Assembly: GCA_947501215.1 (NCBI GenBank)
Contig: CANMUS010000002.1
Span: 124,001 to 188,000, forward strand
DNA: 64,000 bases
Direction of reading: 5' to 3'
Source: an uncultured Erythrobacter sp.
GTDB lineage: Bacteria; Pseudomonadota; Alphaproteobacteria; Sphingomonadales; Sphingomonadaceae
Below are positions 20,995 through 49,335 of the stretch, in pieces. The notes beneath the pieces are model-generated. The model saw only the letters and a list, made by a program, of their open reading frames with translations. It did not search any database and was not told the DNA's origin. Position numbers and translations under genes: made by a program. Each line of letters starts with the position of its first letter. Position 1 is the stretch's first letter.

Positions 20995-21057
20995 CCCGCT
21001 CCCCCACCCGACCACCCATAGAATACCGTGCCGTGGGTGGTCGGGTGGGGGAGCGGG
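20995..21057. repeat. Long hairpin element, copy A
   Basis: A perfect 24-bp inverted repeat (arms 20995-21018 and 21034-21057) around the 15-base loop TAGAATACCGTGCCG. After one mismatch three further outer pairs form. A second copy at 49255-49335 has the identical loop and four stem differences, all compensated. Both copies are followed on the plus-strand side by ACAGCAA and an ATCC-family hairpin. No T-run follows, so it is not a standard terminator. Confidence 0.88.
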
Positions 21058-21069
21058 ACGGCACAGCAA

Positions 21070-21091
21070 GGTCAGGACGGATGTCCTGACC
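21070..21091 (-). repeat. ATCC-loop hairpin, copy 2
   Basis: Stem GGTCAGGAC / GTCCTGACC with loop GGAT, i.e. ATCC on the minus strand, where it lies 13 bases past the glpX stop. It is identical in sequence to the hairpin at 49339-49360 and sits in the same position relative to the long hairpin. Confidence 0.8.
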
Positions 21092-21103
21092 GCACGCAAC
21101 CAA

Positions 21104-22078
21104 CTACCCTACCTTATGCTCGCCCTTGATCCAGCGCACCGTGCCGCTGCTGGCGCGCATCACCACGCTTTCGGTCGTCATCGTGCCGCCCCGGCGGTAC
21201 TTCACGCCTTCGAGCAGGCTGCCGCTGGTCACGCCCGTCGCGGCGAAGATGCAATCGCCTTTGACGAGGTCGTCGCGCGTATAGATGCGGTCGAAATCCT
21301 CGATGCCCCATTTGCGGGCGCGAGCCTTCTCGTCCTCGTTGCGGAAGACGAGGCGGCCGTTGAACTGGCCGCCGACGCAGCGCAATGCGGCTGCAGCCAG
21401 CACGCCCTCTGGCGCGCCGCCCTGGCCCATATACATGTCGATCGTGGTGTCCTCGTCGGTCACCGCGATCACGCCTGCGACGTCGCCGTCACCGATCAGA
21501 ACTACACCGCAGCCGATCGAGCGCAGTTCCGCGATGAGGTCCGCATGGCGCGGTCGGTCGAGCACGCAGACGATGATGTCGGCAGGCTCCACTCCCTTGG
21601 CGTCGGCCACTGCCGTGACGTTCTCGGTCGGCGTTTTCGCAAGGTCGATAATGCCGTCGGGATAGCCCGGCCCAACCGCGATCTTGTCCATATAGACGTC
21701 CGGCGCGTTGAGCAGGCAGCCCTCGGCGCTGGCGGCCAGCACGGCCAGCGAATTGGGGCCGGCCTTCGCGGTGATCGTCGTGCCTTCCAGCGGATCGAGC
21801 GCGATATCTATCTTCGGGCCTTCCCCAGGCGCACCGCCGACCTTCTCACCGATATAAAGCATTGGCGCTTCGTCGCGCTCGCCCTCGCCGATCACCACGG
21901 TGCCGTCCATGTAGAGCGTGTCGAACGCCTTGCGCATCGCTTCGACAGCGGCGGCGTCAGCAGCCTTTTCGTCGCCGCGACCGATCAGCTTCGACGCCGC
22001 GACTGCGGCCGCTTCGGTGACGCGGACCATTTCGAGCACGAGGATGCGGTCGAGCGGGTTGTCGGCAGGCGAATTCAT
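21104..22078 (-). CDS. glpX: Fructose-1,6-bisphosphatase class II
   Basis: A 324-residue GlpX-type enzyme that converts fructose 1,6-bisphosphate to fructose 6-phosphate in gluconeogenesis. Metal and substrate motifs are GEGERDEAPMLYIGE (about 62-76) and the DPLEGTT block (about 92-98), then KIAVGPGYPDG. The start MNSPADNPLDRILVLEMVRVT matches the family; 34 codons upstream do not. In many alphaproteobacteria glpX lies directly after hom. Here the order and strand are kept, but two plus-strand genes intervene. Confidence 0.95.
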   Translation of the reverse strand: MNSPADNPLDRILVLEMVRVTEAAAVAASKLIGRGDEKAADAAAVEAMRKAFDTLYMDGTVVIGEGERDEAPMLYIGEKVGGAPGEGPKIDIALDPLEGTTITAKAGPNSLAVLAASAEGCLLNAPDVYMDKIAVGPGYPDGIIDLAKTPTENVTAVADAKGVEPADIIVCVLDRPRHADLIAELRSIGCGVVLIGDGDVAGVIAVTDEDTTIDMYMGQGGAPEGVLAAAALRCVGGQFNGRLVFRNEDEKARARKWGIEDFDRIYTRDDLVKGDCIFAATGVTSGSLLEGVKYRRGGTMTTESVVMRASSGTVRWIKGEHKVG

Positions 22079-22179
22079 AAGCGGTTCAGTCCCTCGTAGG
22101 TGTATCGGCCCCGGAAGTCGGGTGGCGCTTCGGTCATGCAATCGTATGCGCGAGCGCCCGATAGACAGGGAGCCATGCA

Positions 22180-22599
22180 TTGTCGAGACGACTGGTCGTG
22201 CTGACCCCGGTCCTTGTCGTATTCGCTCCCGGAGCCGCGCAAGCGCAGGGGTCGACCTCCGAAGAGCTTTCTGCCGACGAGCGCGCGTGCCTGCGCAAAC
22301 AGGAGGCCGCGCTTATCTCCGGCGAGATCGTCGTCTGCGGCGACCGGTCGGAGAACGATCGATACCGCCTCGGCCCGCTGGGCGAAGTGCGAAAGCGGTA
22401 TGCCGAAGAGACGATGGATCGCGGCCTTGGCCTGGCCCCCGATTTCAAGCCGCCGCCGTGCCGACCCGGTCTGTTGACCTTGTGCCCCGAGCTGGGAGCC
22501 GCAGGTGAACGCCCGGTGACCGTGGATTTCGATGCCTTGCCCGATGCGCCCGAAGGCTCCGATGCGGACCGCATCGCGAAGGGCGAGACCCCGCAATGA
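22180..22599 (+). CDS. Small secreted protein of unknown function, paralogue of the next gene
   Basis: 139 residues read from TTG at 22180, with AGGGAG seven bases upstream. An N-terminal signal peptide (LVVLTPVLVVFAPGAAQAQ) predicts export. The mature part has a pair of cysteines in CLRKQEAALISGEIVVCGDR, then RKRYAEETMDRG, a Cys pair in PPCRPGLLTLCPELG, and VDFDALPDAPEGSDADRIAK near the end. The same ordered blocks occur in the following gene, so the two arose by duplication. I do not recognise a named family. It is divergent from glpX (about 100 bases apart), and its stop overlaps the next start (ATGA). Confidence 0.75.
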   Translation: MSRRLVVLTPVLVVFAPGAAQAQGSTSEELSADERACLRKQEAALISGEIVVCGDRSENDRYRLGPLGEVRKRYAEETMDRGLGLAPDFKPPPCRPGLLTLCPELGAAGERPVTVDFDALPDAPEGSDADRIAKGETPQ

Positions 22600-23192
22600 G
22601 GTTCTCTTTGTTCGCAACTGTCCTTGTAGCAGCCGTCGCTTCACCGGTGGTAGCGCAGGACGCCGAAACTCCGCTACAGCCGCAGCAAGGCTCGCCTCCC
22701 GAACGGATCGATTTGCTTGCGGCAGCGCGCGAGGCCGACGAACCGCTCGAAGATTGTAGCGAAGAGCAGGAAGCGGCGCTTCTGTCCGGCGAGATCATCG
22801 TCTGCCGCCGCCGCAGCGACCTCGATGAGTATGGCTACGACAAGGAGCGGGCCGAACGTCGCTATGCCCGCGAGACGATGAACAAGGGCAACCCAAGCGC
22901 GCCCGATGTCTTCGGCATACCCGATCAAGGCGTGGTCGCGGCCCGCGGCTGCTTCATTCCGCCATGCCCGCCACCGCCGGCCTATATCATCGATTTCGAG
23001 AGCCTGCCGGACGCGCCGCCAGGATCCGACGCCGATCGCATCGCGCGGGGGTTGCCGCCGCTGGGGCGCGATGTCGCAACGCCCGAAGCCGCAGCAAGAG
23101 CGCGCGCCGAGCAACTCGGTCTTCCGGAGCCGGGGATTGGTGAGGTCAGTCCCCCAGAATCGGCATCACTAGAGGATCTGCCGCAAGACTAG
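22596..23192 (+). CDS. Secreted protein of unknown function, larger paralogue of the preceding gene
   Basis: 198 residues with a signal peptide (VLVAAVASPVVAQD). Shared blocks with the upstream paralogue are CSEEQEAALLSGEIIVCRRR, ERRYARETMNKG, CFIPPCPPPPAYIIDFESLP and PDAPPGSDADRIARG. It adds an acidic stretch before the first block and an Ala/Glu-rich C-terminal tail. Four cysteines in two pairs suggest disulfides in the periplasm. Function unknown. The last 47 bases overlap the 3' end of hom on the other strand. Confidence 0.75.
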   Translation: MRFSLFATVLVAAVASPVVAQDAETPLQPQQGSPPERIDLLAAAREADEPLEDCSEEQEAALLSGEIIVCRRRSDLDEYGYDKERAERRYARETMNKGNPSAPDVFGIPDQGVVAARGCFIPPCPPPPAYIIDFESLPDAPPGSDADRIARGLPPLGRDVATPEAAARARAEQLGLPEPGIGEVSPPESASLEDLPQD

Positions 23193-24456
23193 GCGATCCT
23201 TCGAGCAATTCGAGCGCGGCGGTCACGCAGCGCTCGGGCCCCTCGTGCGTCACCATTGCGACCTGTACCTCGCCGCCGTCATGATCACGGCCGCGCTGGA
23301 TGAGGCTTTCGATGGATACTCCCGCATCGCGCATCGCCGCAGTGATTTCTGCGAGTACGCCCGGCCGGTCGGCCACGGTAAAGCGGATGTAGTCACGACC
23401 CACGCGCTCGCCGGAATCGCCCTGCTCTGCCGTGGCCAGCTGGCTCACGGGCACTGAGAATGGCGCTCCGGCCTGCCCGCGTGCGATGTCGATCAGGTCG
23501 GCAACGACAGCGCTGGCCGTCGGCTTGTCGCCCGCGCCCGCGCCCTGAAAGAGCAGACGCCCGGAGAAATCGCCTTCCGCCACGACGGCATTGGTCGGTC
23601 CGGTCACCGCGGCAAGCGGGTGGCGGAAGGGGACGAGACACGGGCGCACGCGCTGGAGCAACCGTCCGGTCGCCTCGTCGCCGTTCTCCATGCTGGCGAT
23701 CCCGACGAGCCTCACGACGTAACCGAGCGCATCGGCCTGCGCGATATCGGTCGCGCTGACCTGGGTGATGCCACTGCACCGTACCGCTTCGAAATCGATG
23801 CGCGTGCCGAAGCCGATTGCGGCGAGGATCGCCAGCTTGTGCGCAGCGTCCACGCCCTCGATGTCGAAGGTCGGATCGGCCTCGGCATAGCCCTTTTCCT
23901 GTGCCGCACTCAGCATCTCGCCGAAATCGGCACCGGTCCGCTCCATCTCCGACAGGATGTAATTGCAGGTGCCATTGAGGATGCCGTAGATGCGGGTAAG
24001 CGCATTGGCCGCCGTGCCTTCGCGCAGGCCCTTCACCACCGGAATGCCGCCCGCGACCGCCGCCTCGAAAGCGAAGGGCGCGGATTTGATCGCGGCCAGT
24101 TCGGCCAGCTCCATCCCGTGATGCGCCACCATCGCCTTGTTCGCGGTGACGAAGCCTTTGCCTGCATCGAGTGCGGAGCGGGCAAGCGTCAGCGCGGGTC
24201 CGTCCGATCCGCCGACCAGCTCGACCACCACATCGACATCGGCGCGGGTCGCCATGGCCTGCATATCGTCGACCCAGGCGAAGCGGGAGAGGTCGACGCC
24301 GCGATCCTTGCCGCGCTCTCGCGCATTGACTGCAACGACTTCGATCGCTCGCCCCGCGCGGCGCTCCACGACGTCGCGATTGGCTTCGAGCAGGCGGATG
24401 ACGCCGGTGCCGACCGTACCGAGGCCGGCGATCGCAAGGCGCAGCGGCTCAGCCAT
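23146..24456 (-). CDS. hom: Homoserine dehydrogenase
   Basis: A 436-residue monofunctional enzyme that reduces aspartate semialdehyde to homoserine for threonine and methionine. The N-terminal NAD(P) domain begins LRLAIAGLGTVGTGVIRLLE. The catalytic domain contains GILNGTCNYILSEMERTGADF and EADPTFDIEGVDAAHKLAILA (about 200-220). A C-terminal ACT domain (FTVADRPGVLAEITAAMRDA) predicts feedback regulation by an amino acid, usually threonine. It converges with and overlaps the secreted-protein gene by 47 bases. Confidence 0.96.
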   Translation of the reverse strand: MAEPLRLAIAGLGTVGTGVIRLLEANRDVVERRAGRAIEVVAVNARERGKDRGVDLSRFAWVDDMQAMATRADVDVVVELVGGSDGPALTLARSALDAGKGFVTANKAMVAHHGMELAELAAIKSAPFAFEAAVAGGIPVVKGLREGTAANALTRIYGILNGTCNYILSEMERTGADFGEMLSAAQEKGYAEADPTFDIEGVDAAHKLAILAAIGFGTRIDFEAVRCSGITQVSATDIAQADALGYVVRLVGIASMENGDEATGRLLQRVRPCLVPFRHPLAAVTGPTNAVVAEGDFSGRLLFQGAGAGDKPTASAVVADLIDIARGQAGAPFSVPVSQLATAEQGDSGERVGRDYIRFTVADRPGVLAEITAAMRDAGVSIESLIQRGRDHDGGEVQVAMVTHEGPERCVTAALELLEGSPSLAADPLVMPILGD

Positions 24457-24583
24457 GGGTCGGGTGCGCCACGGTCGGGAGTGGAAAATCGGAGTAGAAG
24501 CTCATGCGCTGGCGACTAGCCCAGCAGCGGGGCGCTTTGGAACCAGTTTGTCTTGCCCCGCGCCAAGGCGAAGCTGTCGGCCC

Positions 24584-25423
24584 TCAGCCCGGCGAACGTG
24601 TGCGCGGGCAGGTGCCCAATTGCTCGATAACCAGCGCGTAGTCCTGTTCCGCCAACTCACGGGCCCGCGGATCGCGCGAGATATTGGCCTCTCCCGGCAG
24701 GCCTGAAGGCAGGAAACAGGCAAGGCGATACCATTCGAGCGTGTCCCGCCGCGGCGGGCGGGCGGCCTGGTCGACGATTTCGGTCCATGAAACGCCCCAA
24801 CGCGGTGCCTGGTTCGGCCGCCGCACGACGGTCACGGAAACCGGCCCGTCGTTCTCGGTATCGAGGAACAGCTGGGTTTCGGATTCGCCGACCAGCGTAC
24901 CTTCGACTGCGAGCGCATCACGCACGCCGGTAACGCGTGGCGGGGCGTTTGGCGCAAGCAACGAAGCCAGAACCGACCGCAGGCTGGCGGCAAACGCGTC
25001 AGTATAGGGGAACTGTGCATCGGCCTCGACCAGCTGGATTTCGGCCGGACGTCCGGGCACGGTGCGCGCGAACAGGACGACGTCCTGCTTCTTCAGTTTC
25101 GGCGCCTTGCCTTTCTCGTCCAGCGGAAGATCAACGAGGTAGCGCAGCGATTCGCCAACCGGAACATTCCCGGCGATCAGAGCTGTAGTCTCCGCTTCGA
25201 TGTAAAGCCGGACATGGCCCGGGGCGAGGCCCGGCGAGCGCTCCGGCTCGACCGTCGCCTGATCGCGGATTTTGGCACGAAGGACCAAGGGCGACTTGTC
25301 CGCCAGATCCACAATGTCAGCATAGGTCAGCTGCGTTTGCGGCGCAGGTTCCTGCGCAGCAAGCGGGGTTACTGCCAAAGCGGCAGCGAGCGCTATCGGG
25401 GTAAACAAGGTAGATCGGATCAT
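24584..25423 (-). CDS. Secreted protein of unknown function
   Basis: 279 residues with a clear signal peptide (FTPIALAAALAVTPLAAQE). The mature chain begins LTYADIVDLADKSPLVLRAK and continues as a beta-rich domain of alternating hydrophobic and charged residues. Two cysteines (LACFLPSG, LGTCPRTR) near the C-terminus could form a disulfide. I do not recognise a domain; I recall similar annotated hypothetical proteins in sphingomonads but cannot check. It is upstream of hom on the same strand (128 bases) and may have its own promoter in the 370-base gap to tonB. Confidence 0.75.
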   Translation of the reverse strand: MIRSTLFTPIALAAALAVTPLAAQEPAPQTQLTYADIVDLADKSPLVLRAKIRDQATVEPERSPGLAPGHVRLYIEAETTALIAGNVPVGESLRYLVDLPLDEKGKAPKLKKQDVVLFARTVPGRPAEIQLVEADAQFPYTDAFAASLRSVLASLLAPNAPPRVTGVRDALAVEGTLVGESETQLFLDTENDGPVSVTVVRRPNQAPRWGVSWTEIVDQAARPPRRDTLEWYRLACFLPSGLPGEANISRDPRARELAEQDYALVIEQLGTCPRTRSPG

Positions 25424-25796
25424 GATGTTTCCAGCTGGGCGAATGCGAAATTACTCGTGCGGGCGACTCGGTCAATGGCGGGCGAGGCCCCGAGGTTCCC
25501 CAGCAGATTTCCGGGTAACGGACTGAATCGGTCCTTAACCGACAAAGGGTTTGCGGTGCGCGGGCATCGTGGGTAAGGGATGGGCGGGCCCAAGCGATGA
25601 TACATTGTTGCTTGGGGGAGAGGTCTTGGGGTTCTTTCGGGAACTTCGGGTCTTCTGCATCGCTGTCGGCCTCAGGGTAAACACGATGTTCTGAATGAAA
25701 AACGAGGCAGCGGGTCGCATGCATGTTGCACCCTCCCGCATTAAGCCTCTCAATCCCGGCCTCGCACCGGGATGACCGATGGAGTGAAGCGACCGA
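25424..25796. other. Non-coding gap between a secreted-protein gene and tonB
   Basis: This 373-base divergent gap must carry promoters for both flanking genes. No reading frame in it looks like a protein. A small dyad, CCCGG-CCTCGCA-CCGGG (25755-25771), lies about 25 bases before the tonB start. No Fur box was recognised with confidence. Confidence 0.6.
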
Positions 25797-26474
25797 ATGG
25801 CATATGCTGACCAGGAGATGAGCGGCAATCGCATTGTCGCGATTATCATCGTTGCTCTCATCCATATCGCTCTCGGTTACGCTCTCATCACCGGCCTCGC
25901 ATACAATGCGGTGCAGCAGGTGGTGGAACGCGTGACGACGATCGATATCGAAGAGCCGCCGCCGCCCGAGCCGGAGGACGAGCCTCCGCCGCCACCTGAA
26001 CCCGATACGGCCCCGCCGCCGCCGGTGGCACCGCCGCCGCCGATCAGTATTGCGCCGGCCCCACCGCCGATCCGTACGCAGACGACGATTCCGCCGCCGG
26101 CACCCCCTGCGCTGCGTATTCCGCCGCCTGCACCGCCGGCGCCGCCGCCGCCTCCGCCCGCACCGCCCGCACCGTCCAAGGCTCGGGGCGCATCGCCCAA
26201 AGGCCAGGCCGGCTGGGCGCGTCGCATCCAGTCGAACTATCCCCGCCGCGCCGAGCGCGAGGGCACCGAAGGTAATGTCGGCGTCTCGGTCACCGTCGGT
26301 ACGGACGGCCGCGTAGCCGGCTGCACGGTCACGAGTTCGAGCGGTTCGAGCGATCTCGACTCGGCTGCATGCGACGGTATGACCCGCTATGCGCGGTTCG
26401 ACCCGGCGCTAGACCGCGCGGGCAACCCGATTACGGATACCTACCGGACGACGATCGTCTACCAGCTCAACTAG
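25797..26474 (+). CDS. tonB: Energy transducer TonB
   Basis: A 225-residue TonB protein. One N-terminal inner-membrane helix (IVAIIIVALIHIALGYALI, about 13-31) contains the His that pairs with ExbB/ExbD in the family. A long Pro/Glu-rich spacer (about 50-140) spans the periplasm. The C-terminal domain has AGWARRIQSNYPRRAEREGT, then VGVSVTVGTDGRVAGCTVTS and the final RTTIVYQLN. GGAG lies about 12 bases before the ATG. It heads a tonB-exbB-exbD-exbD cluster and should energise receptors such as the one at 1672-4095. Confidence 0.94.
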   Translation: MAYADQEMSGNRIVAIIIVALIHIALGYALITGLAYNAVQQVVERVTTIDIEEPPPPEPEDEPPPPPEPDTAPPPPVAPPPPISIAPAPPPIRTQTTIPPPAPPALRIPPPAPPAPPPPPPAPPAPSKARGASPKGQAGWARRIQSNYPRRAEREGTEGNVGVSVTVGTDGRVAGCTVTSSSGSSDLDSAACDGMTRYARFDPALDRAGNPITDTYRTTIVYQLN

Positions 26475-26525
26475 GCTTTCCCGTCGTCCCAGGCGGAACC
26501 CAATTACTCAAGAGGACTACTCGCT

Positions 26526-27350
26526 ATGACCTTTCAAATCCTTGCTGCCGCCGGCGAAGCGGCCCCGCAGAACTCCTTCGGCTTCCTCGAAGCAATGGAA
26601 CAGGGCGGCTTCGTCGCCTGGTTCATCCTCGGCGTCATGGTCATCATGTCGGTCGGCTCGTTCTACATCCTGTTCACCAAGCTGTTCGAACAGCGCAAGG
26701 TGATGAGCCAGTACGGCGCCGTCCGTAACCAGTTCTGGAAGCAGAGCAGCCTCAAGGAAGGCGCGACCAAGCTCGAGAAGAACAGCGCTTGGCGCCAGCT
26801 CGTCGATGATGCCCTCATGGCCGAAGACCAGCACTCGAAGATGACCGACAAGCTCGAAGCGCACGACTGGATGCACGGCTCCCTCGCGCGTTCGGAAGAT
26901 GCGATCAACGCGAAGCTCGCCAGCGGCCTGCCGTTCCTCGCCACCGTCGGCGCGACTGCACCGTTCGTCGGCCTGCTCGGCACCGTGATCGGGATCTACC
27001 GCGCGCTGATCAACATCGGCATCGCCGGCTCGGCCTCGATCGACAAGGTTGCCGGCCCCGTCGGCGAAGCGCTCATCATGACCGCCATCGGCCTGCTGGT
27101 CGCGGTTCCGGCCGTGTTTGCCTATAACTGGCTGCAGAGCCGCAACCGCCGGATCGCCGAGATGCTCAACGGCTTCTCGACCGACCTGCTGGCGAACATC
27201 AACTCGAACGGCACCGTCAAGCCGGTCACCACGACGGCTTCGGCTCGTCCCGCAACGGCCAAGTCGGCCTCGGCAACCAAGACGACGACGACCACTGGCG
27301 CGAAGCCGGCCACGACCAACCCGGGCACCACCGGCGCGATCAAGAAGTAA
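26526..27350 (+). CDS. exbB: ExbB/TolQ-family proton channel subunit
   Basis: A 274-residue MotA/TolQ/ExbB protein forming the pentameric inner-membrane channel that powers TonB. Three membrane segments are visible: about 38-58 (FVAWFILGVMVIMSVGSFYI), about 140-160 (FLATVGATAPFVGLLGTVIG, the conserved signature) and about 180-200 (LIMTAIGLLVAVPAVFAYNW). The C-terminal tail is rich in Thr, Ala and Lys and looks unstructured. Its location after tonB and before exbD favours ExbB over TolQ. Confidence 0.94.
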   Translation: MTFQILAAAGEAAPQNSFGFLEAMEQGGFVAWFILGVMVIMSVGSFYILFTKLFEQRKVMSQYGAVRNQFWKQSSLKEGATKLEKNSAWRQLVDDALMAEDQHSKMTDKLEAHDWMHGSLARSEDAINAKLASGLPFLATVGATAPFVGLLGTVIGIYRALINIGIAGSASIDKVAGPVGEALIMTAIGLLVAVPAVFAYNWLQSRNRRIAEMLNGFSTDLLANINSNGTVKPVTTTASARPATAKSASATKTTTTTGAKPATTNPGTTGAIKK

Positions 27351-27428
27351 TTCGGTATCGGGCGGGAGCGCTGAGCGTTTCCGCCCATCCGCCGAATGAA
27401 CCCAAGCTAGAACGATAGGATTTAAACC

Positions 27429-27959
27429 ATGGCGATTTCGACAGGAGGGGGCGCTAATACGCCGATGTCGGACATCAACACCACGCCGCTCGTGGACGTG
27501 ATGCTGGTGCTTCTCATCATCTTCCTCATCGCGGTCCCGGTCGCGATCCAGACGATCGAAAAGCTCGAGATTCCGGTTTTCGAATCGGTGGAATCGAAAG
27601 ACAAGGTCGAGAATCTGCTTCTGACCGTAAGTACCACCGATAGTGCCGGCCGCAGTGCTGGGGAGCCTGGTTTCGAAGGTGCCTCGCGCAACGGCGATTG
27701 CCGCGTGTATTTCAACAATATCTCGCCGGTCACCTCGGAAGAGCTCTACGACCAGGCTTTCGAACGTCTCGATGCAATCGTGCAGCGCGCAGGCGGCCCG
27801 GAAGCCATCATGGACGATCCGGATGCCATTCCGCAGGTACACATCCGTGGTGATGTCAATGCGCCGTGGTCCTGCGTGGCCGGTGCCATCTACAACGTCC
27901 AGGCGGCCGGCTACCCGACCGTCGGCTTCATCTCGAACCCGGTCGACCCGAACGCGTAA
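27429..27959 (+). CDS. exbD: ExbD-family protein, first copy
   Basis: A 176-residue biopolymer transporter subunit. The N-terminal membrane helix [20 protein letters not shown] (about 17-36) has the conserved proton-path Asp in PLVDV. The periplasmic domain is longer than in the next copy. It carries two cysteines ([10 protein letters not shown] and [12 protein letters not shown]), possibly a disulfide. It follows exbB by 78 bases and precedes a second exbD by 38 bases. Paired unlike exbD genes are common in alphaproteobacteria and Xanthomonas. Confidence 0.93.
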
Positions 27960-27997
27960 AACCGGGTCCGGCAGAGAAGAACTAGGAGTAACCCACT

Positions 27998-28435
27998 ATG
28001 GCAATGTCAGGCGGCAAGGATGATGGCGCCCCGATGATGGAAATGAACATGACGCCGTTGATCGACGTCCTGCTCGTGCTCCTCATCATGTTCATCATCA
28101 CGATCCCGGTTGCGACCCACGCGGTCAATATCGACCTCCCGGCGCCGAGCCCGACCCCGCCCGACGTGATCGTCGAGCCGGAAAAGAACAAGCTCGTTCT
28201 CACCGCGACCGACGAGATCCTGTGGAACGGCAATACGATCAACGACGGCCAGTTGCGCACGCTCCTGGCACAGTCGACGCAGATGGCCGTCGAGCCCGAA
28301 CTGCAGTTCGAACCTGAAGCGCTCGCCAGCTACGATCTGGCAGCGCGCGTGCTGCAGATCATCAAGGCCAGCGGCGTGACCAAGTTCGGCTTCGTCGGTA
28401 ACGAGCGGTACCGGACCTTCGGCTCCGCCGGTTAA
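27998..28435 (+). CDS. exbD: ExbD-family protein, second copy
   Basis: A 145-residue ExbD of normal length. The helix EMNMTPLIDVLLVLLIMFII (about 12-31) has the conserved Asp, then VATHAVNIDLPAP. The periplasmic domain has DEILWNGNTINDGQLRTLLA and ends GFVGNERYRTFG. It is the closest relative of the third copy at 28660. A strong terminator follows, so it ends the tonB-exbB-exbD-exbD transcript. Confidence 0.94.
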   Translation: MAMSGGKDDGAPMMEMNMTPLIDVLLVLLIMFIITIPVATHAVNIDLPAPSPTPPDVIVEPEKNKLVLTATDEILWNGNTINDGQLRTLLAQSTQMAVEPELQFEPEALASYDLAARVLQIIKASGVTKFGFVGNERYRTFGSAG

Positions 28436-28458
28436 TCCGAATAATCATCGATAATTGG

Positions 28459-28490
28459 GAAAGGGGCGGAGCGATCCGCCCCTTTTCTTT
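28459..28490 (+). terminator. Intrinsic terminator ending the tonB-exbB-exbD-exbD unit
   Basis: AAGGGGCGGA and TCCGCCCCTT form a 10-bp stem with a GCGA loop, followed by TTCTTTT. It lies about 25 bases past the second exbD stop. Confidence 0.9.
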
Positions 28491-28659
28491 TGCGTGCAGT
28501 GACCGGAGCCCGGCACGTCAAAGCCCTCGGTGAGAGACAAACGCCAAACCGCTGCCTTTGACCGGATCGCTCATAGTCGAAGTCCGTGGCAAACACCACC
28601 GGCGCTTGCCATCCTGCCGTATCTGTGATGTTATCTCATTGCAACGAAGGAGAGCTTCC

Positions 28660-29091
28660 ATGCCGTACCCTCACTCCCCTCGCAGTAGAGTCGGCCAGCC
28701 GATGTCCGAGATGAACATCACGCCGCTGATCGATGTCATGCTCGTCCTGCTGATAATGTTCATTATCGTGATCCCGATCGCAACGCATGCGCTCGCCATC
28801 CCGCTGCCCAATGGCAAAGGCATATTCCGGACCGAGGCCATTAATACGGTCCATATCGATGCGCGGCGCGACCGGCTGTTTTGGAATGGCCAGTCGCTCG
28901 ATCGCCAGCAACTCCTGAACCAGCTCGCTGGAGCCGCGGCCCTCACCGATCAACCGCAAATCCGCTTCGATCCCGATCCCCGCGCCAGCTACGACCGTAG
29001 CGCACGCACGATCGCTCTCATCAAGGACTCGGGGATCGAGAAATTCGCCTTCGTCGGAAATGAACGGTATCGGGCTTTCGGTGCCCACTAA
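28660..29091 (+). CDS. ExbD-family protein, third copy
   Basis: 143 residues from ATG at 28660, which has AAGGAGA seven bases upstream; an in-frame start at 28558 lacks this. The helix [20 protein letters not shown] keeps the proton-path Asp. The periplasmic domain DRLFWNGQSLDRQQLLNQLA ends FAFVGNERYRAFGAH, close to copy two, so it likely derives from it. It lies beyond a terminator and so forms a separate unit with the following gene, whose ATG abuts its stop (TAAATG). Confidence 0.9.
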   Translation: MPYPHSPRSRVGQPMSEMNITPLIDVMLVLLIMFIIVIPIATHALAIPLPNGKGIFRTEAINTVHIDARRDRLFWNGQSLDRQQLLNQLAGAAALTDQPQIRFDPDPRASYDRSARTIALIKDSGIEKFAFVGNERYRAFGAH

Positions 29092-41404: not shown

Positions 41405-41502
41405 GCCCCTCGCATTTATGGCTGAGCCTGCGAAAGGACTTCGCAGGTGCGTTCCTACGTCAATGCCCTAAGCCGAGGATATTTCCAAATTTCCGGCGAG
41501 GA

Positions 41503-42033
41503 TCAGTCGCCTTCGAAATCCATCAGGGCGCGGACGGCTACGTCTTCTGCCTGCAGTCTGCTGCTGCCGCCCAGATCGGGAAGGTCGATCACGAATGCCG
41601 CGGTGGTGACCGCAGCCCCGGCCTCGCGCAACAGCTTCGTCGCGGCCCGCGCAGTCCCTCCCGTCGCCAAGAGGTCATCGACAATCGCAACGGATTGCCC
41701 GTCGCTCACCGATTGGGGATCGAGTTCGAGCCGGTCCATGCCATATTCGAGTTCGTAATCGACGCCGATGACCTCGCAAGGGAGCTTGCCGGGCTTGCGG
41801 ATAGGAAGGAACGGCAGGCCGAGGCGCGCTGCCACCGCCGCTCCGAAGATAAAACCTCGCGCCTCCATGCCGGCGACCGCCTCGCTTCCCTCCACCTGCT
41901 CTGCGAGCCAGTCCACCGCAGCGGAGAAGCCCCGCCCGTGCCCGATGAGGGTCGTGATGTCGCGGAACTGGATGCCCTGCTTGGGAAAATCCGGAATGGT
42001 GCGCACCAGCGCTTTCAACTCAGCCGGGGTCAT
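41503..42033 (-). CDS. apt: Adenine phosphoribosyltransferase
   Basis: A 176-residue type I phosphoribosyltransferase salvaging adenine to AMP. Motifs are IPDFPKQGIQFRDITTLIGH (about 13-32), GMEARGFIFGAAVA (about 54) and the PRPP loop VAIVDDLLATGGTARAATKL (about 115-134). It lies downstream of petC but is separated from it by a hairpin with a T-run, so it probably has its own promoter. Confidence 0.96.
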   Translation of the reverse strand: MTPAELKALVRTIPDFPKQGIQFRDITTLIGHGRGFSAAVDWLAEQVEGSEAVAGMEARGFIFGAAVAARLGLPFLPIRKPGKLPCEVIGVDYELEYGMDRLELDPQSVSDGQSVAIVDDLLATGGTARAATKLLREAGAAVTTAAFVIDLPDLGGSSRLQAEDVAVRALMDFEGD

Positions 42034-42052
42034 TTTCTTTCTCCCACAATCG

Positions 42053-42088
42053 AAAGCGCCCCTCGCATCCGGCTGGATGGAGGGGCGC
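42053..42088 (-). terminator. Terminator of the petABC operon
   Basis: On the minus strand a GCGCCCCTC/GAGGGGCGC stem with an inner CATCC/GGATG stem and one bulge is followed by TTT. It lies about 33 bases past the petC stop and before apt. Confidence 0.65.
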
Positions 42089-42120
42089 CCGCTTGGCGAT
42101 AATCGCGATGATCGGTCGGT

Positions 42121-42972
42121 CTACTTCTTCTTGGGCTTCACCGCGGCCCAGATCTGGTTCTTCGACAGATAGGCCAGCACGGTGGCGAACAGCAGGAAGA
42201 TCAGTACCGGCCAGCCGGTCTGCTTGCGCTGCACCAGGGTCGGCTCGGCCGTCCAGGTCAGGAAGGCCGCCACATCGATCGACATCTGCTCAATGGTCGC
42301 TTCGGTGCCATCGTCATAGGTGACCTGTCCGGTCGACGTCAGGGGCGGAGCCATCGCCAGGTTGAGATTGGGGAAATAGGGATTGTGGTAGAGACCCGGG
42401 CTGGGTGCGGCCTCCGGATGCTCGGCCAGAAGCTCTGCACTCGGCTCCTGATAACCTGCAAGCAGCGAAGCGACGTAGTTCGTCCCGTCGCCACGCGCCT
42501 TTGTGATCAGCGAGAGGTCGGGCGGGATTGCGTTGTTGTTTGCCGCCGCAGCCGCAACTGCATTGGGATAGGGCGACGGGAAATAGTCGGTCGGCAGACC
42601 CGGACGCGTCGTGGCTTCGCCGGTGTTCGGATCAATGCCCGGGACCTGCTTGGAGGCGGCATAGGCTTTGACCTGGCCTTCATCGTAACCGATCTGCGAG
42701 AGGTTGCGGAAGGCGACGTATTTGAGGCTGTGGCAGGCCGAGCAGACCTCGTCATAAACCTTCAGGCCGCGTTGCAGCTGCTGCACGTCCCACTTGCCGG
42801 CAGGACCGTCGAAAGAAAAGGCAAAGTCGCGCGGTTCCTCGTACGGAAGGTGCGGGGCCGTTTCTTCGGTCAGGAAGGCGAAAGCGCCAACGACGAAGGA
42901 ATAGAGCGCTACAAGCGCGAAGCCGAGCCCTGCGAGAATGGCAACGAGGCGGATGCTGAGAAGCTTGGTCAT
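42121..42972 (-). CDS. petC: Cytochrome c1 of the bc1 complex
   Basis: A 283-residue haem c subunit. An N-terminal helix/signal (ILAGLGFALVALYSFVVGAF) precedes the haem motif CSACHSLKYVAFRNLSQIGY (CxxCH at about 76-80). The axial Met is probably in LAMAPPLTSTGQ (about 205). A C-terminal helix (WPVLIFLLFATVLAYLS) and the tail KPKKK anchor it to the inner membrane. Third gene of petABC. Confidence 0.96.
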   Translation of the reverse strand: MTKLLSIRLVAILAGLGFALVALYSFVVGAFAFLTEETAPHLPYEEPRDFAFSFDGPAGKWDVQQLQRGLKVYDEVCSACHSLKYVAFRNLSQIGYDEGQVKAYAASKQVPGIDPNTGEATTRPGLPTDYFPSPYPNAVAAAAANNNAIPPDLSLITKARGDGTNYVASLLAGYQEPSAELLAEHPEAAPSPGLYHNPYFPNLNLAMAPPLTSTGQVTYDDGTEATIEQMSIDVAAFLTWTAEPTLVQRKQTGWPVLIFLLFATVLAYLSKNQIWAAVKPKKK

Positions 42973-42991
42973 GTCTTTTCTCGTTACTCGC

Positions 42992-44287
42992 TTAGACGGC
43001 CGGCGAAGCGTTTTCGCCGAGCACTGCCTTCTTGTCCGATCCCAGCACGGCCTCCGTGATGGAATAGGGCAGCGGTTCAGGCTTCTCGATCTGGCCGACG
43101 ATCGGCAGGATCACGAGGAAGTGAAGGAAGTAGTATGCCGTCGCCAGCTGGCTGAGCATGACATAGGGCTCTTCCGCCGGCGCGCCGCCGCAGATGAACA
43201 GGACGATCATCGCCGGAATCAGGCCGAACCAGAAGAATTTGCGGAACAGCGGGCGATAATGGCCGCTGCGCACCGGCGACCGGTCGAGCCACGGCAGGAT
43301 GAACCACAGCAGGATCGAGCCGAACATCGCGATCACGCCCAGCAGCTTCGCCGGAATGAACAGGAAGTCGACCGTGAAGGCGCGCAGGATCGCGTAGAAG
43401 GGCCAGAAGTACCACTCCGGAACGATATGCGCCGGCGTCGAAAGCGGGTTCGCCTCGATATAGTTGTCCGGGTGACCGAGCGCGTTCGGGAGGAAGAAGA
43501 CCATGGTCATGAACAGGATCAGAGCGACGCCGAGGCCGAAGCCGTCCTTCACCGTATAATACGGGTGGAAGGGCAGCGTGTCGCTCTCGCTCTTGATCTC
43601 GACGCCCGTAGGGTTCGAGGAGCCCGGGATATGCAGCGCCCAGATGTGCAGGATGACACAGCCCGCGGTCACGAAGGGCAGCAGGAAGTGAAGGCTGAAG
43701 AAGCGGTTCAGCGCGGCATTGTCGGGCGCGTAGCCGCCGAGCAACCAGATCTGGATCGGTTCGCCGACCAGCGGGATTGCGCCGAACAAGCCGGTGATGA
43801 CCTTGGCGCCCCAGAAGCTCATCTGGCCCCAGGGCAGGACGTAGCCCATGAAGGCGGTCGCCATCATCAGCAGGAAGATCGTGACGCCGAGCAGCCAGAT
43901 CATCTCGCGCGGGGCCTTGTACGAACTGTAGTAGAAGCCGCGGAAGATATGGAGGTAGACGACGATGAAGAAGAAGCTCGCCCCGTTTGCGTGGGCATAG
44001 CGCATCAGCCAGCCCCAGTTGACGTTGCGCATGATGTGCTCGGTCGTGGCAAAGGCAACCTGGGCGTTCGCGGCATAATGCATCGCGAGGATGATGCCGG
44101 TGACGATCTGCAGCACGAGGAAGAAGCCGGCGAGAACGCCGAAATTCCAGAAATAGCTGAGGTTGCGCGGCACCGGATAGCCGGCACCGACGGCATTGTA
44201 GACGAGGCGCGGCAATGGCAGCTTCTCGTCGAGGAACTTGGTGAAGCCGTTGGCCGGCGTATATTCCTTGGCCCAGGGAAAGCTCAT
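42992..44287 (-). CDS. petB: Cytochrome b of the bc1 complex
   Basis: A 431-residue subunit with eight helices that binds two b haems and both quinone sites. Helix B has [20 protein letters not shown] (first haem ligand His), helix [21 protein letters not shown] (second ligand pair). [16 protein letters not shown] is the PEWY motif of the Qo site. It starts 23 bases past the petA stop and lies 19 bases before petC. Confidence 0.97.
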
Positions 44288-44310
44288 GATCGTATCTCGC
44301 GTCTCTTGGC

Positions 44311-44883
44311 TCAGCCGACCTGGATGGTGGTGTCGGAGGTGAAGGTATATTCCGGCACTTCGAGGTTGGTCGGCGCCGGTCCCTTCCGGATGCGTCCGGC
44401 GGTATCGTAGTGCGATCCGTGGCAGGGGCAGAAATATCCGCCGAACTCGCCCTTGACCTCGCCCTCGGCAGCACCCAGCGGGACGCAGCCGAGGTGGGTG
44501 CAGACCCCCATGGTCACCAGCATGTCCTGATGCCCTTCCTGCGTACGCTCGGCGAGCGTCTGCGGATCGCGCAGCGCACCGACGGGCGTGGCGTTCGCTT
44601 CCTGGACTTCGGCAGGCGTCAGGCGGCGCACAAACAGCGGCTGCTTGCGGAACACGGCCTTGATCGCCTGCCCCGGCTGGATCGCCGAGACATCGACCTC
44701 GGTCGTGCTCGCAGCGAGCACGTCCTTCGACGGCGCCATCTGGCTGATGAGCGGATAGAGCACCGCCAGACCGCCGACGCCGGCGGCGCTCACGGCAGCG
44801 ATGTCGATGAAATCGCGGCGACGGATGCCGTCGCCGGTTTCGCCTGTGGTTTCGGGTGTTGCGGTTGCAGCCGTGTCTGCCAT
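44311..44883 (-). CDS. petA: Ubiquinol-cytochrome c reductase iron-sulfur subunit (Rieske)
   Basis: A 190-residue Rieske protein. A twin-arginine motif [18 protein letters not shown] (about 21-38) directs Tat export and gives the anchoring helix. The cluster ligands are [10 protein letters not shown] (about 133-142) and [10 protein letters not shown] (about 155-164). The start [19 protein letters not shown] was chosen over one eleven codons upstream. It is the first gene of petABC. Confidence 0.96.
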
Positions 44884-45094
44884 CAGCGCTATGCCTTGCC
44901 TGCCTTGTCGATGCACCGGCGGGTCGCCCGCACAGTGCGTTTGCGATTGTTTCCGGCCCTGCGGAGAGCTCGATCGGCGCGCTTGTCAGAAACCTGCACG
45001 AAAGCCCCCGGCAAGCCGGTTTGGAGGGGCCTCTAGCGGGTCAGCGCTGCCTTGCCAACCGCGATTTTGGCAAGCTCCGTGGCACGTGGCGCAA

Positions 45095-45757
45095 TCAGTG
45101 TGGCAGGCCGATGACACTGAGCTGTCGGCCTGTCGTATTCTCACCCCGATGGCTGGCCCGGCGAAACGAGTGGAAGCGATCGGGCTGGCAGTAGGTGTCC
45201 TCTTTCAGATCATCCACCTGCTTGACCCCCGCCAGAGCGAGACGATGGGCGGCAAAACCGGGCAGATCGAATTGCCAATGGCCCTTGCGCCCGGACACGA
45301 AGAATCGGTCGTCGGCCTCCGTGAAGTTCGCCCGGAACGCTTCATCTACCTCATAGCTGGCCTGCGCGATCGTCGGCCCGATTGCAGCGCGGATATCGGT
45401 CGGATCGCTTCCCAATCGCGCCATCGCCGCTACCGTATTTTCGAGTACGCCGGACACTGCACCGCGCCAGCCCGCATGAGCAGCTCCGACGACGCCCGCC
45501 TGTCCGTCCACCAGCAAGACCGGCGCGCAATCGGCGGTAACGATGCCGAGCAGCAAACCCGGCCGGTCTGTGACCAATGCATCGGCCTCGAGCGGTGCCG
45601 CCATGGCCTCCGTTACGAACACCACTTCCGGCGAATGGACTTGCTTCACACGCACAAGCACGCTGTCCGGCAGAATCTCCTGCAGATCGAGCGGCGCGCG
45701 TGCCGAAAAGGCGTGCGGGATCTCCTTCAGCAGGTTCGATCGAAGGGCCTCAGCCAA
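45095..45757 (-). CDS. pgeF: Purine nucleoside phosphorylase/polyphenol oxidase family protein (YfiH/PgeF)
   Basis: A 220-residue Cu-oxidase_4/YfiH-fold protein. Zn ligands are visible in VRVKQVHSPEVVFV, GIVTADCAPVLLVD (about 91-104) and VVGAAHAGWRGAVSGVLENT (about 108-127). Family members act as adenosine deaminase/purine phosphorylase or peptidoglycan editing enzymes; older names call them laccases. Its start overlaps the end of pepN by eight bases. Confidence 0.9.
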   Translation of the reverse strand: MAEALRSNLLKEIPHAFSARAPLDLQEILPDSVLVRVKQVHSPEVVFVTEAMAAPLEADALVTDRPGLLLGIVTADCAPVLLVDGQAGVVGAAHAGWRGAVSGVLENTVAAMARLGSDPTDIRAAIGPTIAQASYEVDEAFRANFTEADDRFFVSGRKGHWQFDLPGFAAHRLALAGVKQVDDLKEDTYCQPDRFHSFRRASHRGENTTGRQLSVIGLPH

Positions 45758-48401
45758 GCGAGCGGCTCACCTGCTCGTATGTGTCCCGCGACAACTTGGG
45801 TGCAGCGGCAATCCGCTCTAGCTGCTCGCGCATCAGCGCGGCGCGTCCGGGCTCGATCCGCCGCCAACGGCCAAGCGGCGGCACGAAACGCGCCGCCGTC
45901 TGCGGATTGATCGGATCGAGCGCGAGGATGAGGTCGGCGATGATGCGATAGCCTTCGCCATCTTCGGCATGAAACGCATGCGGATTGGCTGCGAACGCCA
46001 TGTAGAGCGAGCGGACGCGGTTGGGGTTCTTCAGGGTGAAATCGAGATGGTCGGCCAGCGCCTTCACATGCTCGATCGCGTTCGGATGGAGCGACAAGGC
46101 CTGCAGCGCGAACCATTTGTCGATCACCAGCGCATTGCCCTGGAAGCGGTTGTAGAAATCGAGCAGCCGCGCCGTGCGCTCGGCGCTCTCGGTCCCGGCC
46201 AGCACCATCAGCGCGCCCTGCCGGTCGGTCATGTTGTCGGCGCGGTCGTATTGGTGCGCAGCCAATTCGACCGCTTTCGCCGGATCGCTGGCAGCGGCAT
46301 AGGTCAGCAGCTGGGTCTTGACCTTGCGCGCGCCTCTCGCCGCCAGATCGAGCGAATAAGGTAGCTGCTCCGCCCGCTCGTAGAGCCGCTGCATTTCCCT
46401 TTTCAAGCGTTGGCCCAGCTCGCGTTTGAGCTCTTCGCGCTCTGCATGGATGCGAGCCGGATCGGCAACCAGCATTTGCTCGGCGAGATAGGTCTGGCTC
46501 GGCAGCAGCATCAGTTCGCCCCGCATCAGGTCGTCGAGCCTTTCGTCCACCAGCACAGCACGCATTGCCTCGGCGATATCGCCGACCGCTTCTTCGCGTT
46601 CTTGCTCCTCCAGTCCGCCGCCCGCTGCCGCGACCAGATGGCCGGTCATCAGCTCCTGCATAGCCTCGTAGCGAGCGAAGGGATCATCGTCATGAGCGGC
46701 GAGGAACACGAGATCCTCGCGCGGAATGTCGCGCTCGATCGTGACCGGCGCCGAGAAAGTGCGGTTGATCGAGAGGACCGGCGGGCTCTCGAAACCTTCG
46801 AACTCGAACTCCGCCTTCGCCGAATCGAGCACGAGCAGCTCCTCGCCCGAATGCATGCCCGTCTCGCGGTCGAACAACGCGATCTTGAGCGGGATCGGCA
46901 TGGGCTGCTTGTCCGGCTGGCCAGGCGTCGGCGGCACAACCTGCGAGAGCGCAAGCTTGGCCGTCTGTCCCTCGTGCTGCAATTCGGCCGTGACCTTGGG
47001 CGTGCCGGCCTGCGAATACCACAGGCGAAACTGCTCGAGATCGAGGCCTGCGCCTTCCTCGATCGCGCTGACGAAATCTTCGCAGGTCGCAGCCTCCCCG
47101 TCGTGGCGCTCGAAATAAAGGTCGGTGCCCTGCCGGAAGCGCTCTTCGCCGGCCATCGTCCGCATCATGCGAATGACCTCGGCACCCTTGTTGTAGACAG
47201 TCGAGGTGTAGAAGTTGTTGATCTCACGATAGGAATCGGGCCGGATCGGGTGCGCCAACGGGCCGGAATCCTCGGGGAACTGCACGCTGCGCAGGATGCG
47301 CACATCCTCGATCCGCTTGACCGGCGCGCTGCCCATGTCGGCGCTGAACAGCTGGTCGCGCAACACGGTGAAGCCTTCCTTCAAGCTCAGCTGGAACCAG
47401 TCGCGGCAGGTGATGCGATTGCCGGACCAATTGTGAAAGTACTCGTGCCCGATGACGCCTTCGATGCCATCGAAGTCGCCGTCGGTCGCGGTTTCCGGGT
47501 CGGCGAGGACGTATTTTGTGTTGAAGACGTTGAGGCCCTTGTTCTCCATCGCACCCATGTTGAAATCGCTCACCGCGACGATGTTGAACAGGTCGAGGTC
47601 GTATTCGCGGCCGAACACCTCCTCATCCCACTTCATCGAGCGCTTGAGGCTCTCCATGGCATGCGCGGTGCGTTCCAGATCGCCGTCGCGGACATAGACG
47701 TTCAGCTCGACCTCGCGACCGCCCATGGTGGTGAAGCTGTCGGTCCGCGCCACCAGATCCCCGGCGACCAGCGCGAACAGATAGGACGGCTTGGGCCAGG
47801 GATCGTGCCATTCGGCCCAATGCTGCTCTCCATCTTCGCCGGTCTCGACGCGGTTGCCGTTGCACAGCAGGACGGGGAACTGCGCCTTCGGGCCGCGCAT
47901 GCGGACGGTATAGGTACTGAGTACGTCGGGTCGGTCGGGGAAGAAGGTGATGCGGCGGAAGCCCTCGGCCTCGCATTGCGTGCAGAGCATGCCGTTCGAG
48001 GCGTACAGGCCCATAAGCTGCGAATTGGCCGAAGGATCGATCTCGGTGACGATCTCGATCGTGTGACTGCTGCCTTCGAGCGTGACCACCAGATCGTCGC
48101 CATCCATCGTGTGTCCAGCGCATTCGGCTCCGTCGCAGGACAGCGAAACCAGCTCCAGCCCGTCGCCGTTCAGGCGGATCGTGGGCGAGGCTTCGGCATC
48201 GGGATTGCGCTCAACCGAGAGGGTCGCGGTGACCCGGGTCCGTTCCAGCCCGAGCTCGAAATCGAGCCGCGTTTCGGTCACCAGCCAGGGGAACGGGGTG
48301 TAGTCCTGGCGCCGGATGGTCGCGGGCTCATGCGGCTCGGGCGCTGCATCGGCCATTGCGGCATTGCCTTCGGGCGTGGCGGGGCTGCGGGCGATATCCA
48401 T
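45750..48401 (-). CDS. pepN: Aminopeptidase N
   Basis: An 883-residue M1 zinc metallopeptidase that removes N-terminal residues from peptides. The exopeptidase motif is MGAMENKGLNVFNTKYVL and the zinc site VIGHEYFHNWSGNR (HExxH, about 300), with the third ligand Glu in LSLKEGFTVLRD. The four-domain bacterial length fits E. coli PepN (870). ATG at 48401 has AGGA seven bases upstream; further upstream codons lack homology. It is divergent from the epimerase-like gene, 42 bases apart. Confidence 0.96.
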   Translation of the reverse strand: MDIARSPATPEGNAAMADAAPEPHEPATIRRQDYTPFPWLVTETRLDFELGLERTRVTATLSVERNPDAEASPTIRLNGDGLELVSLSCDGAECAGHTMDGDDLVVTLEGSSHTIEIVTEIDPSANSQLMGLYASNGMLCTQCEAEGFRRITFFPDRPDVLSTYTVRMRGPKAQFPVLLCNGNRVETGEDGEQHWAEWHDPWPKPSYLFALVAGDLVARTDSFTTMGGREVELNVYVRDGDLERTAHAMESLKRSMKWDEEVFGREYDLDLFNIVAVSDFNMGAMENKGLNVFNTKYVLADPETATDGDFDGIEGVIGHEYFHNWSGNRITCRDWFQLSLKEGFTVLRDQLFSADMGSAPVKRIEDVRILRSVQFPEDSGPLAHPIRPDSYREINNFYTSTVYNKGAEVIRMMRTMAGEERFRQGTDLYFERHDGEAATCEDFVSAIEEGAGLDLEQFRLWYSQAGTPKVTAELQHEGQTAKLALSQVVPPTPGQPDKQPMPIPLKIALFDRETGMHSGEELLVLDSAKAEFEFEGFESPPVLSINRTFSAPVTIERDIPREDLVFLAAHDDDPFARYEAMQELMTGHLVAAAGGGLEEQEREEAVGDIAEAMRAVLVDERLDDLMRGELMLLPSQTYLAEQMLVADPARIHAEREELKRELGQRLKREMQRLYERAEQLPYSLDLAARGARKVKTQLLTYAAASDPAKAVELAAHQYDRADNMTDRQGALMVLAGTESAERTARLLDFYNRFQGNALVIDKWFALQALSLHPNAIEHVKALADHLDFTLKNPNRVRSLYMAFAANPHAFHAEDGEGYRIIADLILALDPINPQTAARFVPPLGRWRRIEPGRAALMREQLERIAAAPKLSRDTYEQVSRSLG

Positions 48402-48443
48402 GGAAATCCTGTGCTTTTGCGTGTCTTCGGGTAATACGCCCCG

Positions 48444-49235
48444 ATGCCACAAATGTTCATCGTCGGGCTCGGCTACACGGCCAAACGGATCGCGCAAGCG
48501 CTGAGCACCGCCGGCTGGGCGGTCGAGGCTACCGGAAGCGACGGGACCATCGCTTTCGACGACGAGCCTGCCGTGCTTTCCGCACTGGCCGCTTCGAGCC
48601 ATGTTTTGAGTTCCGTCCCGCCGTCCGATGGCAGCGATCCGGTGCTGGACCGCTATGGCGCGGCGCTCGGCGAGAAATGGCTGGGATACCTCTCCTCGAC
48701 TGGCGTCTACGGCGACTGGCAAGGGGCGTGGGTGGACGAGGCAACCCCGACCGGCGGCGGGCGGCGCACCGCGCGCAGCGATTGCGATGCGCGCTGGCTG
48801 GAAATGGACGCGCGGGTCTTCCGCCTACCGGGAATCTACGGGCCGGGACGCAGTGCCTTTGACCGTATCCGAGAGGGCAAGGCCCACCGGATCGATCTGC
48901 CACAGCAGGTCTTCAGCCGCGTTCACGTGGACGATATCGTGAGCGGAGTGGTCGCCGCCGTCGAGGGCGACGTACCACCCGGCGCCTACAATCTCGCCGA
49001 CGATCTGGCGACCAGCCAGAATGCGGTGATCGAGGAAGCGTGCCGCCTGCTCGGGGTCGAGCCCCCGCCGCTGCAAACGATGGACGAGGCCGAGCTGTCA
49101 CCCATGGCGCGCGGTTTCTATGCCGAGAACCGCCGGGTGGCGAACGGCAAGGCGAAACGGGTGCTGGGTTGGCAGCCGGAATACCCGACTTTCCGAGAAG
49201 GTCTCGCTTCGATTATGGCGTCTAGTCGCGACTGA
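48444..49235 (+). CDS. NAD(P)-binding epimerase-like protein (YeeZ type)
   Basis: A 263-residue extended-SDR-like protein. The N-terminal motif is MFIVGLGYTAKRIAQALSTA (GxGYT rather than GxxGxxG). The core has YLSSTGVYGDWQGAWVDEAT, with Tyr in VYGD and no clear YxxxK Lys. FSRVHVDDIVSGVVAAVEG and YNLADDLATSQNAVIEEACR follow. It resembles E. coli YeeZ, whose substrate is unknown. The long hairpin repeat at 49255 follows its stop. Confidence 0.82.
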   Translation: MPQMFIVGLGYTAKRIAQALSTAGWAVEATGSDGTIAFDDEPAVLSALAASSHVLSSVPPSDGSDPVLDRYGAALGEKWLGYLSSTGVYGDWQGAWVDEATPTGGGRRTARSDCDARWLEMDARVFRLPGIYGPGRSAFDRIREGKAHRIDLPQQVFSRVHVDDIVSGVVAAVEGDVPPGAYNLADDLATSQNAVIEEACRLLGVEPPPLQTMDEAELSPMARGFYAENRRVANGKAKRVLGWQPEYPTFREGLASIMASSRD

Positions 49236-49254
49236 CTTTGTCAGCCGCTGCGCC

Positions 49255-49335
49255 CTGTTCCATCCCACGCCCCCTCCCGGCCACCCATAGAATACCGTGC
49301 CGTGGGTGGCCGGGAGGGGGCGTGGGATGGAACAG
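49255..49335. repeat. Long hairpin element, copy B
   Basis: A perfect 33-bp inverted repeat: arms 49255-49287 and 49303-49335 around the loop TAGAATACCGTGCCG. The inner 24 bp differ from copy A (20995-21057) at four pairs, each with both bases changed together. It lies between the convergent ends of the epimerase-like gene and the EamA transporter gene, 20 bases past the former. Confidence 0.9.

Follow-up and report, generated by a model that had tools for sequence, protein, structure and literature searches.

The closest described systems are the REP palindromes with their BIME and REPIN composites and RAYT transposases, which, in the portion of PMC2817692 that was compared, carry the tag GTAG (or GTGG), occur as short palindromes in inverted pairs and mosaic composites, are usually present in more than 100 copies, and have their palindromes preserved through complementary mutations. 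RAYT-REP systems have a cognate Y1 transposase. The CGTC-tagged REPs belong mostly to the alphaproteobacteria and are defined, in the text of PMC3733652 that was considered, by a CGTC tag, an 8-9 bp stem starting with A/T pairs and a 4-5 base loop; they form head-to-head dimers, with complementary ends in some of the spacers. The Xanthomonas G-quadruplex repeats are, according to the sections of PMC4692102 used here, intergenic G-tract repeats, often in inverted pairs, that are built from tandem heptamers of the GGGNATC type in variable number. Template switching, as set out in the parts of PMC8794818 and PMC8604942 consulted, homogenises hairpin arms, yields compensatory changes in one event and inverts loops or spacers, as was described for RNA genes and yeast coding DNA.

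In the window, by which the whole 64-kb stretch of analysed DNA is meant, exact matches to the loop TAGAATACCGTGCCG were found only at 21019-21033 (copy A) and 49288-49302 (copy B), each inside a long hairpin on the plus strand. The arms of copy A lie at 20986-21018 and, G-rich, at 21034-21066, with a perfect inner 24 bp (20995-21018 with 21034-21057) and mismatches at positions 24, 28 and 31, counted outward from the loop with the innermost pair as 0. In copy B, the left arm (49255-49287) and the G-rich right arm (49303-49335) pair over 33 perfect bp, including the three positions mismatched in copy A; the longest perfect arm obtained by chance was 14 bp, as evident from 60 order-1 Markov simulations of the window with loops of 3-20 bases. 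The inner 24 bp of the two copies differ at positions 7, 12, 18 and 20 (A·T/G·C, A·T/T·A, T·A/G·C and G·C/A·T, respectively), with all eight pairs being Watson-Crick, and position 25, just outside, is likewise compensated. The shared 15-base loop, the four compensated differences and the 33 perfect bp of copy B had been reported in the initial annotation and were confirmed. By eye, copy A looks chimeric in its outer arms, the left being of the GGTACCGG type and the right of a type pairing with CTGTGCC. Elsewhere in the window, at 9415-9483, an inverted repeat of unrelated sequence (GCTCATGCTGAGCCTGTCGA..) was seen, with 20-nt arms that are 90% complementary and 29 nt between them.

Both window hairpins exist as initially annotated, but that description was incomplete, since each is the centre of a larger composite element of about 150 bp with a short hairpin on each side. 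The composite of copy A (20952-21100) is bounded by an outer inverted repeat GTTGCGTGCG/CGCACGCAAC and holds a left short hairpin CCTTCGAC-ATCC-GTCGAAGG at 20962-20981 on the plus strand, preceded by the tag GTGCG, the long hairpin, and a right short hairpin at 21070-21091 with its ATCC loop on the minus strand. The composite of copy B (49216-49372) starts with a left module TGGCGTCTAGTCGC..GCTGCGCC at 49216-49254 on the plus strand, which contains a small hairpin, CTGAC-TTT-GTCAG, and a CGTC motif, and ends with a right short hairpin at 49339-49360 on the minus strand, identical to that of copy A. The common downstream ATCC-family hairpin claimed for the two copies was recovered as 30 bases identical between them.

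In general, a short hairpin has the tag GTGCG, next a stem of some 8-9 bp that encloses the loop ATCC, and finally CTT. Such hairpins adjoin most long hairpins of the genome holding the window, hereafter the own genome, on one or both sides, and by eye some long hairpins (L036, L042 and L044) have no short-hairpin neighbour. Searching for GTGCG, stem, CATCCG, stem and CTT gave 34 genome matches versus one for the reversed control, 29 of them within 150 nt of a long hairpin. Among 35 short hairpins from own loci, the ATCC loop was present in 29 and a perfect stem in 24, the stem sequences being many. Flank stems of at least 6 bp were found in 68 of the 192 flanks of 96 named copies, versus 5/192 control stretches and 2/192 shuffles. 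Half elements, with a single arm whose partner is missing, are also present, as seen for the half arms in L007, L010 and L028. At the G002 site orthologous to L009 (L450), a short hairpin with a half arm is followed in tandem by a complete element, an arrangement that suggests elements growing or decaying in tandem.

Compared with the REP, BIME and REPIN elements as portrayed in the part of PMC2817692 considered, the family shares the tagged short palindromes in inverted pairs, as revealed by the 34 pattern matches, and the mosaic composites, but it has the tag GTGCG, it holds between its short hairpins a long, almost perfect one whose loop is conserved, and it occupies 24 places in the genome. 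A RAYT-driven REPIN was rejected because Y1_Tnp (PF01797) is absent from the own genome, which may nevertheless have had one in the past; 5 of 60 genus genomes carry one. The family works like a REP composite but departs from RAYT-REPs in tag and transposase, and it is not filed there. CGTC occurs in the left module of copy B, as GGCGTC, and in like modules of other copies, where the fit of stem and loop to the CGTC-tagged REPs is unclear; the common short hairpin has no CGTC tag, and the text of PMC3733652 that was compared makes no mention of the long hairpin. Set against the Xanthomonas repeats, as described in the sections used of PMC4692102, the element has one arm that is fixed instead of heptamers in variable number, and in addition a conserved loop and short hairpins on its flanks. 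A MITE, as a derivative of a DDE transposon, would have terminal inverted repeats, a target-site duplication and a related autonomous transposon with the same ends. Copy A has an outer inverted repeat, and TTA...TTA was seen at one site; a flank inverted-repeat score of at least 10 was reached in 17/94 named copies versus 7/94 controls, and 30/188 flanks versus 1/188 controls had CTAG no more than 70 nt away from the long hairpin, all at named loci (e.g., L140, L148, L174, L179, L204 and L207). Longer terminal inverted repeats were seen in L163, L143 and L093.

A covariance model built from the core of the own-genome copies placed the family at these 24 places through 48 matches on both strands. 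It was found in 43 of the 99 relatives' genomes searched and in 40 of 60 within the genus, own genome included in both counts, and order-wide in 101/246 genomes and 28/71 genera. The inner-stem pattern gave at least 117 stretches in named genomes, selected by a motif in which, of stem positions 0-16, only 6 and 11 are free; among the 80 matches listed, Sphingomonas, Novosphingobium, Qipengyuania, Kordiimonadales, Minwuia, Kiloniellales, Neoroseomonas, Roseospira and Hellea were represented. One family member (L152, 4176-4225) sits in a record labelled Bacillus sp. 2B10, a label at odds with an alphaproteobacterial family, which may reflect either a wrong label or a transfer, and one Minwuia contig (L098, 3641-7196) has three long hairpins inside 3.6 kb. 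Loops vary between species, many sharing a core like AGGATACTG or its complement. In three loci (L100, about 2971-3062; L104, about 3190-3280; L108, about 3962-4055), one long-hairpin arm contains a second hairpin, CCCCRCAAAGTANTACTTTGYGGGG, bordered on either side by a GTGGGGG-type stretch; it looks as though another kind of small element had been inserted into the palindrome.

The initial annotation knew of no named family with this loop, and this agrees with both searches made. At the Rfam gathering score, only two tRNAs were matched in the window and neither hairpin; at a lax threshold, copy B gave 57 matches, mostly microRNA precursors, all of them below the cut-off. No description of the element was found in the open-licence literature as far as it was consulted, nor in the portions compared of PMC4666352 on intrastrand triplexes, PMC12306157 on RepRanger and PMC13155455 on hairpins in many genomes. 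A phage origin was rejected, as a consensus composed for the family had no match in the phage collection and matched three plasmid records, all sphingomonad.

The copy B site was compared in 42 genomes with the EamA region: G000, G056 and G007 hold the full element, G002 holds part of it, and the other 38 have none. At element-free sites, the 3' ends of two convergent genes touch or are at most a few tens of bases apart, e.g., ..CTTCGATCAAGGCTCGGGAGTAG of G055. The empty site of G055 reads ..CTTCGATCAAGGCTCGGG, versus ..CTTCGATTA, the element and TTACGGCTCGGG in the own genome, i.e., ..GATTA, the 157-bp element and TTACGGCTCGGG. Judged from this alignment of filled and empty sites, copy B is a clean insertion, with a probable 3-bp target duplication of TTA at 49213-49215 and 49373-49375; the duplication rests on copy B, the one clean empty site with close relatives. 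The borders elsewhere are TTA/TTA in G007, TTG/TTA in G056 and TGA/TCA in G002. The gene to the left of copy B now ends within the element (49235), and the right TTA, read on the minus strand, is the stop codon of the EamA gene.

At the copy A site, 29 of 30 loci were comparable and the full element was present in four (G000, G056, G055 and G007, own genome included); G042 is collapsed to a single short hairpin, and the other 24 are by eye without a long hairpin. At another site, long hairpins were found in 5/12 loci, with G056 retaining one short hairpin only. The collapsed sites of G042 and G056 are probable losses, a direction that we infer. Upstream of gpmA, a long hairpin was found in 6 of 58 genomes, a comparison that left out two genus genomes with incomplete gpmA; two of the six have gapped or degenerate arms (one by eye), and G044 has, by eye, a deletion stub. 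An ancestral resident copy at gpmA was rejected on the basis of these few occurrences and the stub. The own gpmA (window 62872-63552, minus strand) has no upstream long hairpin, and some relatives have one right before the start codon.

Both copies were initially placed 3' of minus-strand genes. Copy A does lie 3' of glpX (21107-22180, minus) and copy B 3' of the EamA gene (49376-50287, minus), but copy A also lies 5' of the ribose-phosphate diphosphokinase gene (19879-20844, minus); all three genes were identified by Pfam and NCBIfam. The gene at 48444-49232 gave no Pfam match and a single NCBIfam match far below the cut-off. Neighbours were called for 18 of 22 own loci, yielding 12 tandem, 4 divergent and 2 convergent contexts, with one tandem call (L008) being wrong and divergent by eye. 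These contexts do not support a role tied to gene 3' ends. They also bear on the idea of a bidirectional transcription terminator maintained between genes, which fits the very stable hairpin and the position of copy B between convergent genes, and which we regard as very improbable: reading the sequence beside both arms of both copies on both strands revealed no T-run, as the initial annotation had stated; convergent contexts make up only 2 of the 18; and in G028, G032 and G035, a copy sits between two divergent start codons (of genes that are mutM- and ubiE-like by eye).

To follow the stems at orthologous sites, 60 loci from six relatives were used, and 73 of 78 hairpins could be registered (18 own and 60 others), with five being skipped. 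The orthologous set comprised 41 pairs matched in both flanks, covering 16 own loci at a mean flank identity of 92.8%; the pairs are non-independent, as one own locus may be paired with as many as six genomes. Over 1353 pair positions, 105 were changed on both arms with pairing kept and one on both arms without pairing, while 66 were changed on one arm (40 left only and 26 right only). The copies differ in their stems and uncompensated mismatches are few; neither a set of identical stems, as after simple recent duplication, nor an abundance of broken pairs, the two outcomes named beforehand as speaking against the initial interpretation, was encountered.

Of the 41 pairs, 19 share the same loop, 10 have it inverted and 12 have different loops. 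The loop of copy B is inverted at the orthologous site of G056, and in the copy B pair L006/L348 the loop is inverted, the arms are identical and the 50-base flanks are 96-98% alike. The loop is also inverted in L041/L374, with flanks 88% and 98% alike and three one-sided arm changes, and in L008/L375, with a left flank 98% and a right flank 68% alike. Both flanks are 88-98% alike in two of the ten loop-inverted pairs, whereas in the seven beyond these three both sides have changed, a point against the reading preferred below.

The symmetric changes sit on few positions, so that many of them could be drawn from an old stock of alleles exchanged in blocks, with no need for arm-to-arm copying. 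A rival explanation relies on whole-element exchange only: palindromes that already exist would be moved between sites by ordinary ectopic gene conversion or by re-insertion, and neither arm would be copied from the other. The outer positions 24, 28, 29 and 31, which nearly always switch together, speak in its favour, as do the 12 pairs with wholly different loop types and the glpX site of G007, where the left and right short hairpins are swapped as if the element had been inverted as a whole. Exchange of this kind leaves the source of new symmetric variants unexplained, however, and it does not sit well with the occurrence of all four allele combinations in 26 of 36 pairs of variable stem positions (73 hairpins) or with the inverted loop of copy B between identical arms and near-identical flanks. 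We consider it possible that such exchange accounts for everything, though rather unlikely.

Pairing selected in a structured RNA, be it an sRNA, an attenuator or an mRNA-stabilising hairpin, with compensatory mutations restoring the stem, was weighed against the mismatch spectrum. RNA selection from a fixed strand would favour G·T. Counting the first 26 pairs of 17 own, 31 genus and 124 named hairpins (4433 cells) gave 4320 Watson-Crick pairs, 36 G·T, 40 A·C and 37 other mismatches, so that no excess of G·T over A·C was detected, in a test that is weaker than it appears, as a palindrome can be read from either strand. In the 11 copies defined by their loop, 97.0% of 363 cells were paired versus 39.5-48.5% in slid controls, which is in line with a selected structure, as are the common core shared by loops and the few copies that immediately precede a start codon (in some relatives, that of gpmA); the same 363 cells hold only 3 G-U pairs versus 38 double changes. 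The covariation among these copies stood in three of five measures, with the cells paired, the cells doubly changed and the covariation score beating all 500 shuffles; it did not stand in the other two, as 9 pairs had a double change, a value reached by 121/500 shuffles, and 12 further pair types were counted, a value reached by 497/500. Inverted loops at orthologous sites and sites that are filled in some species and empty in others also run against an RNA role, which we judge improbable.

The initial annotation had left the choice between selected folding and hairpin-aware mobile copying. Folding is the less supported of the two, and DNA copying is the better reading because of the symmetric changes and inverted loops at orthologous sites, the insertion and probable loss of the element, and the lack of a G·T excess. 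We think it likely that the family is a non-autonomous, REP/BIME-like mobile element whose compensated differences are a product of DNA copying and not of RNA selection. In the element, two short hairpins would enclose a long one, whose stem measures about 24-38 bp and whose loop has some 15 bases; it would insert between genes, also at points where neighbouring genes abut. Once the palindrome becomes single-stranded, one arm may be copied from the other during replication or repair, by template switching within the hairpin, giving rise to symmetric new stem variants together with an inverted loop. Homogenised arms and inverted spacers are the described outcome of template switching in the parts of PMC8604942 and PMC8794818 consulted; in contrast to the RNA genes and yeast coding DNA of those studies, the present case would concern a dispersed bacterial element with longer arms. 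Recombination with other genome copies would then spread stem and loop types between sites. A mobilising enzyme would act in trans, presumably with no benefit to the host. An autonomous transposon between neighbouring hairpins was rejected, as the ORFs found there in L134, L100, L098 and L141 resemble ordinary genes by eye and none is listed in L202.

In the right arm, the variable stem positions fall between the G runs. Among 76 genus hairpins, with N-containing cells omitted, symmetric minority pairs occurred in 1/1332 paired cells of the G tracts and in 151/638 paired cells of the linkers, and one-sided mismatches in 18/1350 and 37/675 cells, respectively. In 41 out-of-genus hairpins (32 distinct), minority pairs were found in 0/571 paired tract cells and 61/281 paired linker cells, with 5 mismatches in tracts and 7 in linkers; this sample consists of the best-scoring matches of a model trained on the own genome, which favours conservation. 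The linkers are not all variable, positions 7, 18 and 23 of this tract/linker count being nearly constant. In a blind scan of named loci, the hairpins of L103, L156 and L207 had kept their tracts and changed their linkers, and four G-runs separated by 1-7 bases could be fitted to 46 of the 47 right arms examined.

That symmetric changes are almost missing from the tracts shows the stem to be restrained from free drift. A quadruplex motif is matched by the G-rich arms, so there may be a constraint on the stem sequence as such; the tracts may be conserved through folding as a quadruplex, through recognition by a protein or because conversion purges changes. We put forward tentatively, as a reading with a minor share of probability, an ancient alphaproteobacterial DNA structure in which selection would hold the guanine tracts for the G-rich arm to fold as a G-quadruplex, the free linkers would be rewritten symmetrically by template switching, and a switch between hairpin or cruciform and quadruplex or i-motif would underlie mobilisation or an effect on replication.

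Compensatory changes are a usual proof of a real RNA structure. Here, dozens of compensated changes at orthologous sites are better explained by DNA copying between arms, together with the loop inversion that such copying predicts. The family is apparently an undescribed, widespread and dispersed group of REP/BIME-like mobile palindromes, with arms that carry a quadruplex motif. As such, it offers a natural test bed for template switching in bacteria and a warning for RNA discovery based on covariation.
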